Shown: in pieces, positions 46,527 to 55,394 of the stretch
Position numbering within the stretch: the first letter of the stretch is position 1
How the letters are laid out: each line of letters starts with the position of its first letter
NCBI GenBank assembly: GCA_021108275.1
Contig: JAIORD010000037.1
Coordinates: forward strand, 124,001-188,000
From: Methanococcoides sp.
Lineage (GTDB): Archaea; Halobacteriota; Methanosarcinia; Methanosarcinales; Methanosarcinaceae
Length of the DNA stretch: 64,000 nt
Reading direction: 5' to 3'
Made by a program: the position numbers and the translations under genes
Notes under the pieces: generated by a model
The model's database searches: none
What the model saw: only the letters and a program-made list of their open reading frames with translations
Told to the model about the DNA's origin: nothing

Positions 46527-46824
46527 TCATACTGAAATCAGCATTATCCCATCCCACTAGTGTGAGATACATCCCCTTCATTGCCACAATAATATTTAAT
46601 CTTTTCGCCATATTGCCCATGAAAGCGACAAATGTGAACATAATGACGATCAAAATGAACAAAGGACAGCTGGATTACAGAGATTACGGATGAAGTTGTG
46701 AAGGAAGAACAGAGAGAATCGTAGAAAAATAACAGAAAAGACGGAACAAAAGAAAAGATGGGGCAGCCTGGATCGAAGATCGATCTTGCAGACGCCCGTA
46801 TTATCCAATATACAGATATCGGAA

Positions 46825-48011
46825 TTAGAAAGTATCAAGTTCGCCTTTGACCACCATATCAGTGATCTTGGTGATGTTCTCAAGCCAGTCGTCAATGACC
46901 ACTTCTGCTTCAGACCTGATGGCAGCAAAGTTCGCACCATCTTCAGGGATGACCTGTGCACTTGCCACGAGTGGCTGAGAGATAGAAGCTTGATATGGAC
47001 ATCGCTTACTTCATCAACAGCACTTACAACATCCCTTGCCATCTGTGTGGAAAGCAGGTTGTAGATCTTACCAATGTGGTTGATAGGATTCTTACCGCTT
47101 GTTGCTTCCATGCTCATTGGCCTGCTTGGAGTGATAAGACCGTTGCTTCTGTTACCACGACCTACTGAACCATCATCACCCATTTCAGCAGATGTACCTG
47201 TAACGGTAAGGAAAACGCAGTCACAGCCACCATCGACCTTATCAGCAGCATTGATATGAGCTGAAACTGTCCTGTCGGTATACTTTGTAGCAAGATCAAG
47301 AACGTATTCGGTCATCTCTTCCTTTGCATTGATGTAGTGGTCCATGTCATCGATGTGCCTGCCCACCATACCACAGCAGATGGTAAGAGAGATATCATCG
47401 TTCTCCCTGAGACCCATGACCTTTATATCTTCCCCGATTCCAGGGATCTTCTTTTTCTTAAGGTCTGTCAAAAGCTGTCTCTCGGTATTGTAGACGACCT
47501 GTTCAAGTTCCGAGAAAGGAGCATGCCCCACACCGAATGAGGTATCGTTAGCCATTGGAACATGGTCCCTGGTGAAAACATCCCTGAGATCAGAAGAACC
47601 CGTCCCAAGCTTGCAGTCAATGATCATATCCCGCTCAAGGTCCATAGCAGGAATGGTGTTACGAACATATTCACGTGCAGCCTGGAGGGCAACTGCCTCT
47701 GCAGGGATCTCCATACCATCGAATTCCATGGTAGCCCTTCCGACAAGAAGAGTGTAAATAGGTTTGAGAACCTCGCCGCCTCCGAATTCAGGCCGGGACC
47801 TTCCTGCAACGATCTGGGTCTCATCTGTGTTGTGGTGAAGGATAGCTCCACACTTGTCAATGTATTCTTTACAAAGAGCACGGCTCACAGCTTCTGCGAG
47901 ACCATCACTGATACTGTCCGGATGACCTATACCTTTCCTTTCAACAAGCTCGGTCTCCTGTTTTTCGATAGGAGTCTCATGGAGATGTTCCACTTTGATA
48001 TTTCGGATCAT
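46825..48011 (-). pseudogene. metK: S-adenosylmethionine synthetase (archaeal MAT) with disrupted reading frame
   Basis: The first ~345 codons (48011 to about 46985) match archaeal MAT, including ERKGIGHPDSISDGLAEAVS and [18 protein letters not shown]. After the VHIKLLS segment the frame runs into unrelated sequence and on to 46650. The true C-terminus (QPLVASAQVIPEDGANF ... KGELDTF then TAA at 46825-46827) continues in another frame. About seven family residues (QIGxPIx) are missing at the join (about 46975-46990), so a deletion of roughly 19 bases is likely. The enzyme is normally essential. Confidence 0.8.
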
Positions 48012-50536: not shown

Positions 50537-50571
50537 AAGCCGTATTATTACGGCTTACTTGAACTTTTTTT
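50537..50571 (+). terminator. Hairpin terminator between hisB and the MutS-like gene
   Basis: An 8-bp perfect stem AAGCCGTA/TACGGCTT (50537-50544, 50549-50556) with loop TTAT is followed on the plus strand by ACTTGAACTTTTTTTG. The same TTAT loop occurs in the fpo terminator. It sits at the stop of the convergent MutS-like gene and may serve both. Confidence 0.6.
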
Positions 50572-52675
50572 GTAATCTTTTATAAAAGTCCTGCTCCAGA
50601 CCATTTGACTTTCTTGACAGACGCTCGACTATGAGCTCAGGAGTGCTCTTTGCAACATAATTGTACCTTGGCGTCCTTTCAACTATAAGGTTCAGGTCCT
50701 TGTCAAGCCCGCTTGCCTCGATACCATCAACGCGTACATTGCATTCAGTGTTCTCAAGGATCAGTTCTGATAAATGGGACACAAAAATTGACATGCCGTT
50801 ATTATTCTCAGAAAGCACCTCCAGTATTCCCGAGATTATCTTTGCAGAAGCTCCCGGCTCAGTAATGGATTCCAGTTCATCTGCCAGAACAAGCTTTGAA
50901 GAATCATTTGCAACAACCGAGAAATCAACAAGGGTGGTCTCGAAAGCTCCTGCATCCAGAGTACCTTTGGATTTTCCAAAATGATAGAACTCTTCCGCAA
51001 GACCTATCTCCATGTTCATGGCAGGGGTTGGGAAGCCCATGTGAGCAAGAATAACACACTGTGCCACCAATTCAAGCAGAGAGGTCTTTCCCCCTGAATT
51101 GACACCACTCAAAAGAACAACACGACTACCATTCCCATCAGGATCATAGGAGGTATTACCTACCGAATAATCAATAGGTACGACCGAACCATGCCGCGTT
51201 CTTATGAAAAGGTTCGATGCCGACTCGAACGCAATACCAGTCCCTTCAATGAACTCAGGAAGATGAAGGTCGAACTCCTTTGCAAAGCACCCTATTGAAA
51301 AGCCCACATCGAAATCAAGGGCTTCGTGAACCATCCTTTGTGCAACATCATGGAACTCCGAGAGTGTTCTCGCAATATTGCATTTGTGACGAACCTTCAA
51401 TTTTTCCACTTGATTTGCGATCTGCTGTTTAAAAGAATACAGGCATTCCTGTTTCACTTCAATAGGATGAGAGATCTCGTCCGAGAAAAAGGAAGCAAGG
51501 GACAACAGCTCATTCCGTTCAAGCCCCAGATCCGCCACGATCTTCTCTTTTGCGGTCTTGATAACAGAACTGTAAGAATGGAACAGCTCTTTTTCTAGCA
51601 GGTCCTTTATCTCCATTTTCCCGTTCATCACCTTAAGCATGTCCTGACCGCTAAGCGTAAGTTTGCTCTCCTCCAGACAGGAATTAAGAGTGACATTGGC
51701 AGCAGTAATGGTTTCTGAAACACAATTATCGACATTTCTGGTGATCATCATAAGGCGATCGATACTATTATCAGAACCCTCCCTGACATCCCCATCCCCA
51801 TCTATAAGAGAAAGGGTCTGCTTTAATCTTTCAATATCATCGTCCGCAATATCTTCAAGGGAACATATACCTGAACAGCGTAATATTTCAACCATTTGGA
51901 TACAGCATTCAAGCGTATTAAGATTCCTCGCAAAGAAGTAGATCTCCTTCTCCGGCACTATCTGCCACATATTTGCTTTGCGAATATCAGGAATGAACTC
52001 AGGATCAACATCTTCAGGAAGGTCAAAGGCCATACACTTGTCATCAGCAGCAACAACATGGGAATACCCCCTTGCAGTATCAACGAACTCCCCCGCACCC
52101 TTCACGAACTGGACATCCAGAAGATCCCCGAACATCTGCCGTGCAACTTCATACTGCTTGCTATCAGCGGTCAGGATCGCCCTGGACCTAACTTTCGGCG
52201 GGTTGCATTTGACATCCAGAGCCTTTACATTGGATAGAAGCGAGATAAGTTCTTCATTGTCCCCCAATAAGCAAGCAGTCCTAATATGCCCGGCAACATC
52301 CTTCCTAATATCCTCAATGAGTGCCTTTTTGCTTGCAGGATAAGGTATGTAGACATGAAGCTTGTCCTTTGCATATCTTGTATGTGTGAACTGCTTGATG
52401 ATATCCAGGAGCCTCTCATAGATATCCGAAGCTTCCTTTGTCTTAAGGAAATCTTCCATACTAACACCTTCGAACTGTGCACGCACTTCGTGTACAAGAG
52501 AAATAGCATATCTTTGCCCCACTCCTTCAACTTCGGAAATACTTGCGATGTCACCGCTTAAAATAGCATCCATTGCCCTATCCTCCCCACCAAAATGCTC
52601 CTGAAAGCGTTTCGCCATTTTCTCACCAATACGCGGAATATCCTGTAACACATTCATTTTCTCACCCATTTTCAT
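50555..52675 (-). CDS. Helix-hairpin-helix MutS-like ATPase
   Basis: A 706-residue protein. Residues about 8-66 hold two helix-hairpin-helix units (VLQDIPRIGEKMAKRFQ, ISEVEGVGQRYAISLV). The MutS-type ATPase domain is C-terminal: Walker A GVNSGGKT (524-531), the MutS segment GAFETTLVDF (576-585), Walker B LVLADELES. No N-terminal mismatch-binding domain and no Smr nuclease domain are visible, so it is not classical MutS or MutS2. The ATG at 52675 overlaps the upstream gene; GGGTGAG also suits ATG 52657. Probable DNA-junction or repair ATPase. Confidence 0.82.
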   Translation of the reverse strand: MKMGEKMNVLQDIPRIGEKMAKRFQEHFGGEDRAMDAILSGDIASISEVEGVGQRYAISLVHEVRAQFEGVSMEDFLKTKEASDIYERLLDIIKQFTHTRYAKDKLHVYIPYPASKKALIEDIRKDVAGHIRTACLLGDNEELISLLSNVKALDVKCNPPKVRSRAILTADSKQYEVARQMFGDLLDVQFVKGAGEFVDTARGYSHVVAADDKCMAFDLPEDVDPEFIPDIRKANMWQIVPEKEIYFFARNLNTLECCIQMVEILRCSGICSLEDIADDDIERLKQTLSLIDGDGDVREGSDNSIDRLMMITRNVDNCVSETITAANVTLNSCLEESKLTLSGQDMLKVMNGKMEIKDLLEKELFHSYSSVIKTAKEKIVADLGLERNELLSLASFFSDEISHPIEVKQECLYSFKQQIANQVEKLKVRHKCNIARTLSEFHDVAQRMVHEALDFDVGFSIGCFAKEFDLHLPEFIEGTGIAFESASNLFIRTRHGSVVPIDYSVGNTSYDPDGNGSRVVLLSGVNSGGKTSLLELVAQCVILAHMGFPTPAMNMEIGLAEEFYHFGKSKGTLDAGAFETTLVDFSVVANDSSKLVLADELESITEPGASAKIISGILEVLSENNNGMSIFVSHLSELILENTECNVRVDGIEASGLDKDLNLIVERTPRYNYVAKSTPELIVERLSRKSNGLEQDFYKRLQKKFK

Positions 52676-53511
52676 GCAAAACTATCCAGGGTACAGCCAG
52701 CAATGCCCCTTTCAACCTTATAACGATCTCTTTTTGACATCTTGCTCATCGAAGCAGAACTTTTGGGCTGCATTTTCTTTGCAAGCCCATGATTTCTCCT
52801 TGAATCTATCATCTGGGAATTATAGTAGAGGTCCCAGAGCTCATCCACATCATCCGATTTTGATGTTGACCGAAGGCTTTCCACAAAGGATGAGGTGATC
52901 TTTGCAAACCTATCAAGTCCAATAAGATCACCATTGCCTACCCACGCAGAACCATTTTTGATAACTGCCACAGGAACGTCTGGATTTTTCCTGACAAGCC
53001 ACCTGCAGAACATATCCGCGATATCGTGAGGAGTATCAATAACAACAGACAGTATGCCACCTTTAAGCTCCGGTCGTGCGAACATACACAACCTCTCGTA
53101 TGCTTTGCCAACCTCACGCATATAATTATAATACCGTTTTGCGATCTTGCTCTTCCCTGAATAAAGTCCATCAGTATCGCCATTACAGGAAACCAACAGT
53201 CGCACAAGCCCAGCAGGATCACAACCCTTGTGCCTTAGAAGAAGATCTACGTACCGTAGAGGATCGGGGTCGAACCTTGCCATACGAGGTTTACTTTTTC
53301 CGAATATCTCCTTGGATAAGGACTCGGACCGATAAGAAGGATCAAAACCTACCATATTGATTTCACCCTCGATACCTGAAAGATCGAGTTTCCCCTTAAG
53401 CTCCCCCACATCGCTCGCAAATATCAGTTCAGAACCAGGGTCTTCCCTGAAAGCTAAACATGCAAGCAGTACACCCTCTACACTGGACCTAAAAGCTATT
53501 ATTATGAGCAA
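52672..53511 (-). CDS. DUF4130-like protein partner of a radical-SAM enzyme
   Basis: A 279-residue protein beginning LIIIAFRSSVEGVLLACLAFRED, with a charged Arg/Lys-rich middle and a C-terminal MSKRDRYKVERG. It matches my memory of the family (TIGR03915/DUF4130) that is encoded beside radical-SAM protein TIGR03916 in bacteria and archaea and has been named a probable DNA metabolism protein without experimental data. Its TTG start (53511) overlaps the radical-SAM gene by 10 bases; its stop overlaps the MutS-like start (ATGA). Confidence 0.78.
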   Translation of the reverse strand: MLIIIAFRSSVEGVLLACLAFREDPGSELIFASDVGELKGKLDLSGIEGEINMVGFDPSYRSESLSKEIFGKSKPRMARFDPDPLRYVDLLLRHKGCDPAGLVRLLVSCNGDTDGLYSGKSKIAKRYYNYMREVGKAYERLCMFARPELKGGILSVVIDTPHDIADMFCRWLVRKNPDVPVAVIKNGSAWVGNGDLIGLDRFAKITSSFVESLRSTSKSDDVDELWDLYYNSQMIDSRRNHGLAKKMQPKSSASMSKMSKRDRYKVERGIAGCTLDSFA

Positions 53512-54641
53512 GCCCCCATAAAAGAGGAAAGGTTCGTCTGCCTTGAACCATTGATAGAAATGTAGGGCCTTGCACGGGAAACTACGACACCCACCCGAGA
53601 AAGTTCCTGCTCGGAAACTATCGGACGGCCACGCACGATCCGGTTAGCACTGATCGGCCCGATACCGGGAACAAGGAGCAGATCGGATATTTCAGCGGAA
53701 TTGATATCCACCGGAAAACGATCAGGCTGTGATCGTGCAAGCACTTCCTTTGGGTCAGCATTTGAGAGATACCCATACTCATCGTAGATCTCATCGAGAT
53801 CGCTTGACCTGAGACCATAGTCCTTTAAAAGAAAGGACATCTGATACAGCCTCTGCTCACGCCATTTCGGCGAAGGGGACCCATTCTCGAGCGGAGTATC
53901 AGGCACAGGGTCAAAGCTCATAAAATAAGGCCTTCGCAATGCATACTTGTCCATGAACTTGTGGACCGTCTTCACGACCTCTTTGTCAGACTCAGGGACC
54001 GCACCCACCACGAATTGAGTGTCATTTGCACCAACCATTTTTCCCATACCGCAATATTCACTTCTTTTCTTCTCAATGAGGTCCCTTGTCCATTTCAACC
54101 TCTGCAGAACATCGTTCTTATAATCGAAATTCGGGCATATCTCAGAATAATTAATAGAATTGGTGGTCTCCGCATTAACACCGAACTTATCCGCATGATC
54201 TGCGATCTGCTCAAGTAGATATTTCGGAGTGCCAGGCATCACACGAATATTGATGTAACCTTTAAAACCCTGACCTCGCAACAGTTCCACCACCTCTAAT
54301 TGCTTCTGCGAAGTATACTCTGCATCCCCCATGATGCCGGAAGACAGGAACAGACCCTCGATGGCATTCCTTCTGTAAAATGACCAGGTGATCTTTGCAA
54401 TTTCTGCAGGTTCAAGAGAAGCTCTTTTAGTCTCACGCTCACAGCGATTTGGACAATAGGCACACTCCCCTGCACAGGAATTCGATAACAGTGTCTTATA
54501 GAGCTGTATACACCTTCCATCGGGACCAAAAGCATGACAGACAGCACTCTGATTGCAACTGTCATATTTAGTACCTGCAGAGAGGATCTGCATTCTCTCA
54601 GATAAGGTCAGATGATGTTCGTTCTGTCTATAAGCACTCAT
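53502..54641 (-). CDS. Radical-SAM DNA modification/repair protein family
   Basis: A 379-residue protein with a CX3CX2C radical-SAM motif at Cys56/60/63 (CAGECAYCP), further conserved Cys29/35/44, and a C-terminal helix-hairpin-helix pair (DINSAEISDLLLVPGIGPISANRIV), which suggests DNA binding. It fits the uncharacterised family annotated as putative DNA modification/repair radical-SAM. The GTG at 54659 opens the frame; ATG 54641 matches the expected leaderless start 26 bases from a TATA box and is used. Operon with the DUF4130 and MutS-like genes. Confidence 0.82.
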   Translation of the reverse strand: MSAYRQNEHHLTLSERMQILSAGTKYDSCNQSAVCHAFGPDGRCIQLYKTLLSNSCAGECAYCPNRCERETKRASLEPAEIAKITWSFYRRNAIEGLFLSSGIMGDAEYTSQKQLEVVELLRGQGFKGYINIRVMPGTPKYLLEQIADHADKFGVNAETTNSINYSEICPNFDYKNDVLQRLKWTRDLIEKKRSEYCGMGKMVGANDTQFVVGAVPESDKEVVKTVHKFMDKYALRRPYFMSFDPVPDTPLENGSPSPKWREQRLYQMSFLLKDYGLRSSDLDEIYDEYGYLSNADPKEVLARSQPDRFPVDINSAEISDLLLVPGIGPISANRIVRGRPIVSEQELSRVGVVVSRARPYISINGSRQTNLSSFMGACS

Positions 54642-54663
54642 TGGATGATAAATTGGCACTTAA

Positions 54664-54671
54664 TTATATAA
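54664..54671 (-). promoter_or_regulatory. TATA box of the radical-SAM operon (leaderless)
   Basis: TTATATAA on the minus strand has its centre 26 bases from the ATG at 54641, the usual archaeal TATA-to-start distance. No ribosome binding site precedes that ATG, consistent with a leaderless mRNA. Confidence 0.55.
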
Positions 54672-54803
54672 CCGACAGCCAAGCGAGGTGAAAGTATTAT
54701 TTAAAAAAAATGTCAAAAAGCCATATAAAAAAGAACAGTGCGAAATAATGTAATAATAAGTAGGAACAATGCAAAAAAGAAAGAAAATTGATAACGTTCA
54801 AAG

Positions 54804-55319
54804 TCATTTCTTGACATGAATATCAAGTTTGAGCTTAGTGACCGGTTCAAGTTTCTTCCATTCGATAGTTGTGTCCTCATCAAGTACACAGTTCTGAACT
54901 GACTTCTCAGAGAACTCGCCATTTATCTCATAAACATAAAGACCATCTTCCCCATCTGTAGAGATAATAACTTCCCTATCGCCTTTCTTCTTCACCTTTA
55001 TTGCAGCTACACCACGCAGCGCATCCAGAAGAGTAGTACCTTTTTCCACCTCTATGGACTTTGTCGGTGCAAAAGAATTCATAGCAATATAGATATTATC
55101 CTTATGTGGTTTCAGCACATGGGTCTTCCCGAATATCTTGCGCTCAATAAGATCCGCAGCTTCCAATATCTTAACATGCTTCGCAGCAACCGGAACAGAG
55201 ATCCCTAACGTCCTTGCCAACTCGGAGATATGCATCTCCTCCACACTAAGTAGCTCAAGCATTTTAATGCGTGTATCGCTTCCCAGTGCGCTAAAGACTT
55301 TGTTTTCCAATTGGCTCAT
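54804..55319 (-). CDS. ArsR-type winged-helix regulator
   Basis: A 171-residue protein. The N-terminal winged helix is ENKVFSALGSDTRIKMLELLSVEEMHISELARTLGISVPVAAKHVKILE (about residues 4-52), a typical ArsR/HTH_20 fold. A beta-rich domain of about 100 residues follows, with no obvious metal-binding cysteines. The frame is open from 55379, but ATG 55319 is the sensible start. It may control the adjacent radical-SAM operon 145 bases downstream or the kinases upstream; this is unproven. Confidence 0.8.
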   Translation of the reverse strand: MSQLENKVFSALGSDTRIKMLELLSVEEMHISELARTLGISVPVAAKHVKILEAADLIERKIFGKTHVLKPHKDNIYIAMNSFAPTKSIEVEKGTTLLDALRGVAAIKVKKKGDREVIISTDGEDGLYVYEINGEFSEKSVQNCVLDEDTTIEWKKLEPVTKLKLDIHVKK

Positions 55320-55394
55320 ACATGTAAATGGAAATATGAGATATATAAGGATATCAGTCCCATTTTTAAGTACATACACAAAAAAATATTGGAT

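Follow-up and report, generated by a model that had tools for sequence, protein, structure and literature searches.

A radical-SAM/DUF4130/MutS operon of Methanococcoides as a probable part of an archaeal DNA-damage response

A 64,000-nucleotide (nt) stretch of a Methanococcoides sp. genome (assembly GCA_021108275.1, contig JAIORD010000037.1, positions 124,001 to 188,000; hereafter the window, with positions counted from its first letter) carries on its minus strand a radical S-adenosylmethionine (SAM) gene, a gene of the DUF4130 family and a gene for a MutS-type ATPase, and it raises the question of what these three have to do with one another. An earlier note on this DNA had read them as one DNA-repair or nucleic-acid modification system. 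We consider it probable, from the sequence comparisons below, that the locus is a DNA-damage-response operon composed of two modules, the radical-SAM/DUF4130 pair and the MutS protein, which would belong to one response, would be biochemically separable and would have been fused into an operon once. Genera and families of the genome collection are designated by g and f numbers.

The operon and its promoter element

Three open reading frames (ORFs) were found where the earlier note had placed them, and the overlaps of 10 and 4 bases it described are literally present. The features of the locus are as follows.

54681 to 54698, minus strand: conserved operator AATACTTTCACCTCGCTT, present in 16 of the 16 loci compared
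54664 to 54670, minus strand: TATA box (TATATAA), at a fixed spacing from the operator and 26 nt before the ATG at 54641
54659 to 53502, minus strand: TIGR03916-like radical-SAM ORF, from profile matches and alignments
53511 to 52672, minus strand: DUF4130 ORF with a TTG start, overlapping the radical-SAM gene by 10 nt
52675 to 50555, minus strand: ATPase with helix-hairpin-helix (HhH) and MutS domains, probably of the archaeal MutS5 kind, from profile searches and the tree
54804 to 55379, minus strand: ArsR-like winged helix-turn-helix (HTH) gene upstream of the operon, with a possible DUF4430-like C-terminus

The only conserved stretch of the operon 5' flank was AATACTTTCAnnnnGCTT, followed after 9 nt by a TTATAT/TATA box, and comparison of the flanks located the core AATACTTTCA in all 16 operon loci. 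In the own 2.67-Mb genome there were four exact copies of the element and six with one mismatch, against none for the reversed-pattern control. The good sites precede the operon itself (L212), hef (L213), radA (L214) and RPA (L217, one mismatch), as well as a 26-amino-acid (aa) microprotein (L218/L331) and a small-RNA-like locus (L215/L330), and the remaining one-mismatch sites look like chance. When 28 genomes were searched with a looser pattern, radA, hef and RPA were found again in many family members, together with dinB (g6, g7), recQ (g5, g6), xseA (g3, g5) and orc1/cdc6 (f14). Two features that lie outside the looser search pattern were strongly conserved among the 69 sites, namely an A at position -1 (99%) and a TATA box spanning +26 to +32. 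A common operator on recombinase, single-stranded DNA-binding protein (SSB) and repair genes, as in an SOS-type system, is therefore what these archaea have, and because radA, hef, RPA and the operon share it, the operon looks like part of a DNA-damage regulon. Nothing relevant to the element or to an archaeal radA/hef regulon appeared in the literature searched, which was mostly without subscription journals.

Moreover, the element was observed at the modules when they stand apart. The lone MutS gene of f14 has it 44-46 nt before the start in three of three genomes (0, 2 and 2 mismatches), and the separate pair of f14 has a weaker copy in one genome (3 mismatches). Several genomes of f5 have variants such as AGTACTTTCGCCCCGCTT (2 mismatches) before their separate pair, and the f2 copy of the pair has an element with 1 mismatch; only 3 of 4000 random 250-bp windows reached 2 mismatches or fewer. 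These sites suggest that both modules came under the one promoter element, each by itself in f14 and the two together in the window's family, and we regard this shared recruitment as the best evidence for a functional link of the modules, a link for which physical association would not be required.

Other loci behind the operator were recorded as well. A conserved microprotein of 26-51 aa (MDDFFxELVNRARYYEQFEEF...) follows it directly in many family genomes (G000:C5:118289, that is L331 from position 210 onward; L276, L284, L292, L304, L285, L272, L313, L318, L271) and looks like a new regulon member. Also behind it is a conserved stretch of roughly 90 nt that resembles an RNA (ACACGCCTTTACAAGTTTCAAGGCTAGGT...), holds no long ORF and is bracketed by CACGGAT...ATCCGTG in some loci (G000:C26:9700, that is L330:201-350; L278, L283, L264, L293, L300, L305); these loci matched no Rfam family at the gathering threshold, and a small RNA of the regulon is possible. 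In addition, two f14 genomes, G157 and G175, have a GCAT variant at orc1/cdc6 (L246, L247/L255), and a CoiA-like competence gene has the operator upstream in a relative of the same genus (L280, G078).

As for the architecture of the operon, Met7 of the predicted radical-SAM protein was invariant in the alignment of relatives, and the true start is probably its codon, the ATG at 54641. Since this ATG follows the TATA box by 26 nt, a leaderless operon transcript beginning there is suggested. The MutS start that fits the relatives is probably the ATG at 52669, 2 nt past the DUF4130 stop, so the 4-base overlap, which holds for the ORFs as called, may be nominal. Nearly all loci keep an overlap of the radical-SAM gene with DUF4130, at -10, -4 or -1 nt. 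The spacing between DUF4130 and MutS ranges from -11 to +44 nt among 47 loci, a count that includes a few duplicates. The winged-HTH gene is a constant neighbour in the family genera checked and also in g4, which has no pair, and it is probably a separate transcription unit. As regulator of the element it is doubtful: g4 keeps the HTH gene and has only one copy of the element genome-wide, a poor one. A plasmid search with the operon region gave no match. Near the operon, the S-adenosylmethionine synthetase gene (window 46650-48011) is frameshifted with a break near 46980, residues 2-344 and 350-401 of a relative aligning in different frames; this is likely an assembly error. The same gene of M. 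alaskense (L052) is broken too, at another place.

Distribution of the pair and of the MutS gene

Of 150 genomes sampled from the class, 147 had the MutS gene, 94 the radical-SAM gene and 54 this form of DUF4130. Within the window's family 49 of the sampled genomes have the pair, and all 49 keep the order radical-SAM, DUF4130, MutS (47 contiguous, two split at contig ends), which is more than chance. The adjacency is not confined to one genus, the case that the earlier note had set against itself, and extends over seven genera of one family; the named relative Methanococcoides alaskense (L052) has the trio as well, with 98% identity in the radical-SAM protein. Among 80 named radical-SAM loci DUF4130 follows directly downstream in most, so that the two, which the earlier note had called a known uncharacterised pair, are a recurrent unit, and MutS follows only in M. 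alaskense. Nearly all of these archaea have the HhH-MutS gene as a core gene, and it is kept where the pair is missing, as in genera g4, g6, g7 and g12. In a different archaeal phylum it was found in 94 genomes out of 100, and in three genomes of that phylum (L192/L193/L194 = G364/G382/G345) the match lies inside an open frame of 3000-4000 aa. In f5, where 44 genomes have a radical-SAM gene, both the pair and MutS occur, but never adjacent. The g4 locus is otherwise unchanged (HTH gene, MutS, hisB, hisA, hisG), and the pair was evidently lost there, since the MutS tree places g4 inside the trio clade.

The pairs of the window's family and of f14 form one clade. In f14 genome G175 (L180) MutS lies near hisB and hisA and the pair about 10 kb off, beyond the his genes, so that a loose neighbourhood may predate the operon. 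One f2 genome, G141, has a pair copy that falls inside the window's family and is not accompanied by MutS; it is a product of transfer or contamination. In-frame TAG codons were reported in DUF4130 of G003 (L047 8503-9372) and at MutS of G129; in this family, where TAG can be translated as pyrrolysine, they may reflect readthrough, or else an extension beyond the start or decay.

With this distribution an obligate trio is rejected: the three-gene system that the earlier note proposed is not supported as an obligate one, as MutS and the pair each occur alone, the pair across bacteria and archaea. If the three proteins worked as a single machine, with the MutS ATPase detecting a DNA structure and passing it to a radical-SAM enzyme that modifies a base, this would account for the near-zero gaps in 47 loci, the adjacency in every pair-bearing genome of the family, the HhH domains on both enzymes and the independent placing of both modules under the same element in f14. 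However, its parts occur alone (MutS in 147 of the 150 class genomes versus 94 for radical-SAM), the pair lacks MutS in all 79 other named loci, and MutS was retained after the pair was lost in g4; we judge such a machine unlikely.

The opposite explanation is that a single insertion brought the pair to a site upstream of a MutS gene with a housekeeping role and that general synteny has kept the order since, with no functional link between them. The tree shows a single origin in one family, and the adjoining his genes are about equally conserved. Further, in seven small genomes of the Bacilli type the pair runs straight into groEL (L062, L078, L092, L100, L109, L117, L121), which shows that packing behind the pair can be incidental. 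This groEL is divergent and scores under the GroEL cut-off, and since it is the sole groEL found in those genomes a special partnership with the pair was rejected; tight packing alone proves little. But MutS5 and the pair can bear the same element even when apart, as in f14, and we hold mere passive neighbourhood to be improbable, rather more so than a single machine.

Bacterial loci place the pair among repair genes. In alphaproteobacteria (L107, L123, L124) the radical-SAM gene is followed by a fusion of DUF4130 with uracil-DNA glycosylase (UDG) and then, with almost no gap, by error-prone DnaE2. The C. acetobutylicum pair CAC3343-3344 is predicted to be under LexA control (PMC3828012), and an Acinetobacter homologue of the radical-SAM gene rises on desiccation (PMC13130816). 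The DNA-repair context that the earlier note had suggested is thus supported from two sides, by the operator that radA, hef and RPA also have and by the bacterial UDG fusion, DnaE2 neighbour and LexA prediction.

Among radical-SAM enzymes elsewhere there are some that modify RNA and some that produce antiviral nucleotides, which would allow a defence or RNA-modification system in place of repair of the cell's own DNA. A PADLOC defence-system search gave no meaningful match, the operator is common to core repair genes, the operon is not mobile within the family, and in bacteria the pair is a predicted LexA target; we give this explanation hardly any credence, the least of those considered.

Domains and folds of the three proteins

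The radical-SAM protein scored 279.7 bits against TIGR03916 (rSAM_link_UDG), under the curated cut-off of 343.5, which no genome of the phylum sample passed. The other attributes of that family were all found, namely the CX3CX2C motif (C62, C66 and C69 in the alignment of relatives), a C-terminal HhH (HHH_3) and an adjoining DUF4130 gene. The C-terminal HhH described in the earlier note is borne out by the HHH_3 match, and it matched ComEA (2duy) in profile comparison with solved structures. Three more cysteines are conserved in the alignment, C35 invariantly and C41 and C50 nearly so, and these could bind a second cluster. For the AlphaFold model (predicted local distance difference test, pLDDT, 88) the closest folds were HydE first and then ThiH, BioB and lipoyl synthase (LIAS). 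Spore photoproduct lyase (SPL) was not among the 50 best fold matches, and the fold search gave no support for kinship with SPL. For the base change that the earlier note suggested, the predicted fold thus does not point specifically to the radical-SAM enzyme already known from DNA repair.

The DUF4130 protein scored 27.6 bits against PF13566, barely over the Pfam gathering score of 27, and 17.9 bits against TIGR03915 (cut-off 112.25); its f14 relative reached 56.7 bits for PF13566. By sequence, comparison with solved structures gave nothing useful. Its AlphaFold model (pLDDT 86) weakly resembles DHH phosphoesterases/RecJ (Foldseek E 2e-5, template modelling score, TM, 0.40). When the DUF4130 profile was compared with three DHH proteins encoded in its own genome, the profile-profile probability was about 0.1%, and no DHH motif was present, so the idea of a DHH/RecJ-type phosphoesterase was not upheld and stays a lead only. 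DUF4130 was noted earlier as a predicted mutagenesis-related enzyme (PMC3765255).

The MutS protein passed thresholds for HHH_5 (aa 9-64) and MutS_V only, with the core and ATPase at about aa 405-705. In the domain profile search it had no MutS domains I or II and no Smr domain, which confirms a MutS-type ATPase with an N-terminal HhH and without mismatch-binding or nuclease domains, as first described. Against solved structures, its profile matched only the core and ATPase of MSH3, MutS and MutS2, and its N-terminus matched the HhH of Topo V, XPF and Hef. It scored 26 bits against MutS1, under the equivalog cut-off of 641.7, and the closest NCBIfam matches, KamC and MutS2, were both far under their cut-offs: MutS2 was rejected at 50.4 versus 400 bits with no Smr, and KamC at 69.7 bits versus 300. 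In the tree, which contained no named MutS5 sequence, it grouped with the long paralogues of haloarchaeal-like genomes (94% support in the Shimodaira-Hasegawa-like approximate likelihood-ratio test, SH-aLRT).

Since KamC was the best NCBIfam match (E 2e-19), the ATPase might be a chaperone or reactivase of the radical-SAM enzyme, as KamC is for lysine 5,6-aminomutase. However, the score is far under the KamC cut-off, the ATPase has an N-terminal HhH, MutS is kept in genomes with no radical-SAM gene, and in the tree a KamC-like protein is set apart from the ATPase by a very long branch; we find this role very improbable. The earlier proposal that the ATPase senses a DNA structure is plausible, because binding to Holliday junctions has been reported for archaeal MutS5 (Ohshita 2017, as cited in PMC11276520), and the structure sensed is more likely a recombination intermediate than a mismatch.

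A proposed response and its relation to known systems

Our preferred explanation, a damage-response operon of two separable modules, can be put as a sequence of steps. Damaged DNA or stalled forks would lead a regulator at the element to raise or derepress the whole gene set. With its ComEA-like HhH and DUF4130 keeping it on DNA, the radical-SAM enzyme would use a 5'-deoxyadenosyl radical to process a damaged nucleotide, either by direct reversal or by conversion for base excision or translesion synthesis. The target of MutS5 would be branched DNA, either Holliday junctions or forks, which it would bind with its HhH and its MutS clamp; using ATP, it would stabilise or remodel the intermediates that RadA and Hef produce. 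Both modules would act in one response while remaining biochemically separable, and their fusion into one operon would have happened once, within the window's family. We propose the lesion-processing half because of the HhH, the bacterial partner genes and the regulon, and the branched-DNA half because of the Holliday-junction binding reported for archaeal MutS5, as cited above, and because radA and hef are co-regulated with it. What we infer here are the induction by damage, the substrate, the chemistry and the formation of a complex.

Several observations weigh against this explanation. Genus g4 lost the pair and kept MutS. The fold comparison links the radical-SAM enzyme to no known DNA-lesion enzyme. 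There was no element before the pair in f14 genome G175 (L180), and none at the MutS gene of g4, g6, g7, g12, f2 and f3 (5-7 mismatches) or of f5, so the place of MutS5 in the regulon is not universal.

More tentatively, and with somewhat less than even confidence, we propose an SOS-like regulon in Methanosarcinia and the related lineage f14, in which a regulator acting at AATACTTTCAnnnnGCTT upstream of the TATA box would unite radA, hef, RPA, dinB, recQ, xseA, orc1/cdc6, the new microprotein, the new small RNA and the radical-SAM/DUF4130/MutS5 operon, and in which the radical enzyme would repair lesions by an undescribed chemistry. Each module was already known on its own; the literature searched, in which subscription journals were not covered, has neither the operon that joins them nor the element they share. 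A euryarchaeal SOS-like regulon, if true, would be more than a variant operon, and the regulation of archaeal DNA repair is listed among the closing questions of a review (PMC7690668). The operon supplies a concrete operator, recurring on radA, hef and RPA, that is testable by reporter. Moreover, independent evidence would place the radical-SAM/DUF4130 pair in the damage response in both domains (in archaea the operator; in bacteria the predicted LexA control, the fusion with UDG and the DnaE2 neighbour), and archaeal MutS5 would be linked to the same response.

Compared with the bacterial SOS system under LexA, the likeness consists in a short operator common to genes for recombinase, SSB, helicase/nuclease and Y-polymerase, and in the radical-SAM pair being a predicted LexA target in C. 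acetobutylicum, whereas here the operator belongs to an archaeal TATA promoter. The DNA-damage response element of Sulfolobus Orc1-2 is ANTTTC (PMC9738581), which the core ACTTTC of our element fits, and the element-bearing orc1/cdc6 of two f14 genomes recalls the autoregulated Orc1-2 of Sulfolobus; however, our element has 18 bp, a fixed TATA spacing and other target genes. The Orc1-2 connection is a lead only, a six-base match alone being weak. SplB is a radical-SAM enzyme that repairs DNA, but the fold of the operon's enzyme is closest to HydE, ThiH, BioB and lipoyl synthase instead. Archaeal MutS5 (H. volcanii HVO_0191 and HVO_1354), which the long and short HhH-bearing paralogues of haloarchaeal-like genomes resemble, similarly has a MutS core with ATPase and lacks both mismatch and Smr domains; the MutS of the window differs in standing in an operon with the radical-SAM pair. 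The known TIGR03916/TIGR03915 pair with DUF4130, joined to UDG in many bacteria, has the same gene order, overlap, CX3CX2C motif, C-terminal HhH and DUF4130 partner, whereas here the scores are under the cut-offs, there is no UDG domain, and the pair stands behind an archaeal operator and is followed by MutS5 instead of DnaE2.

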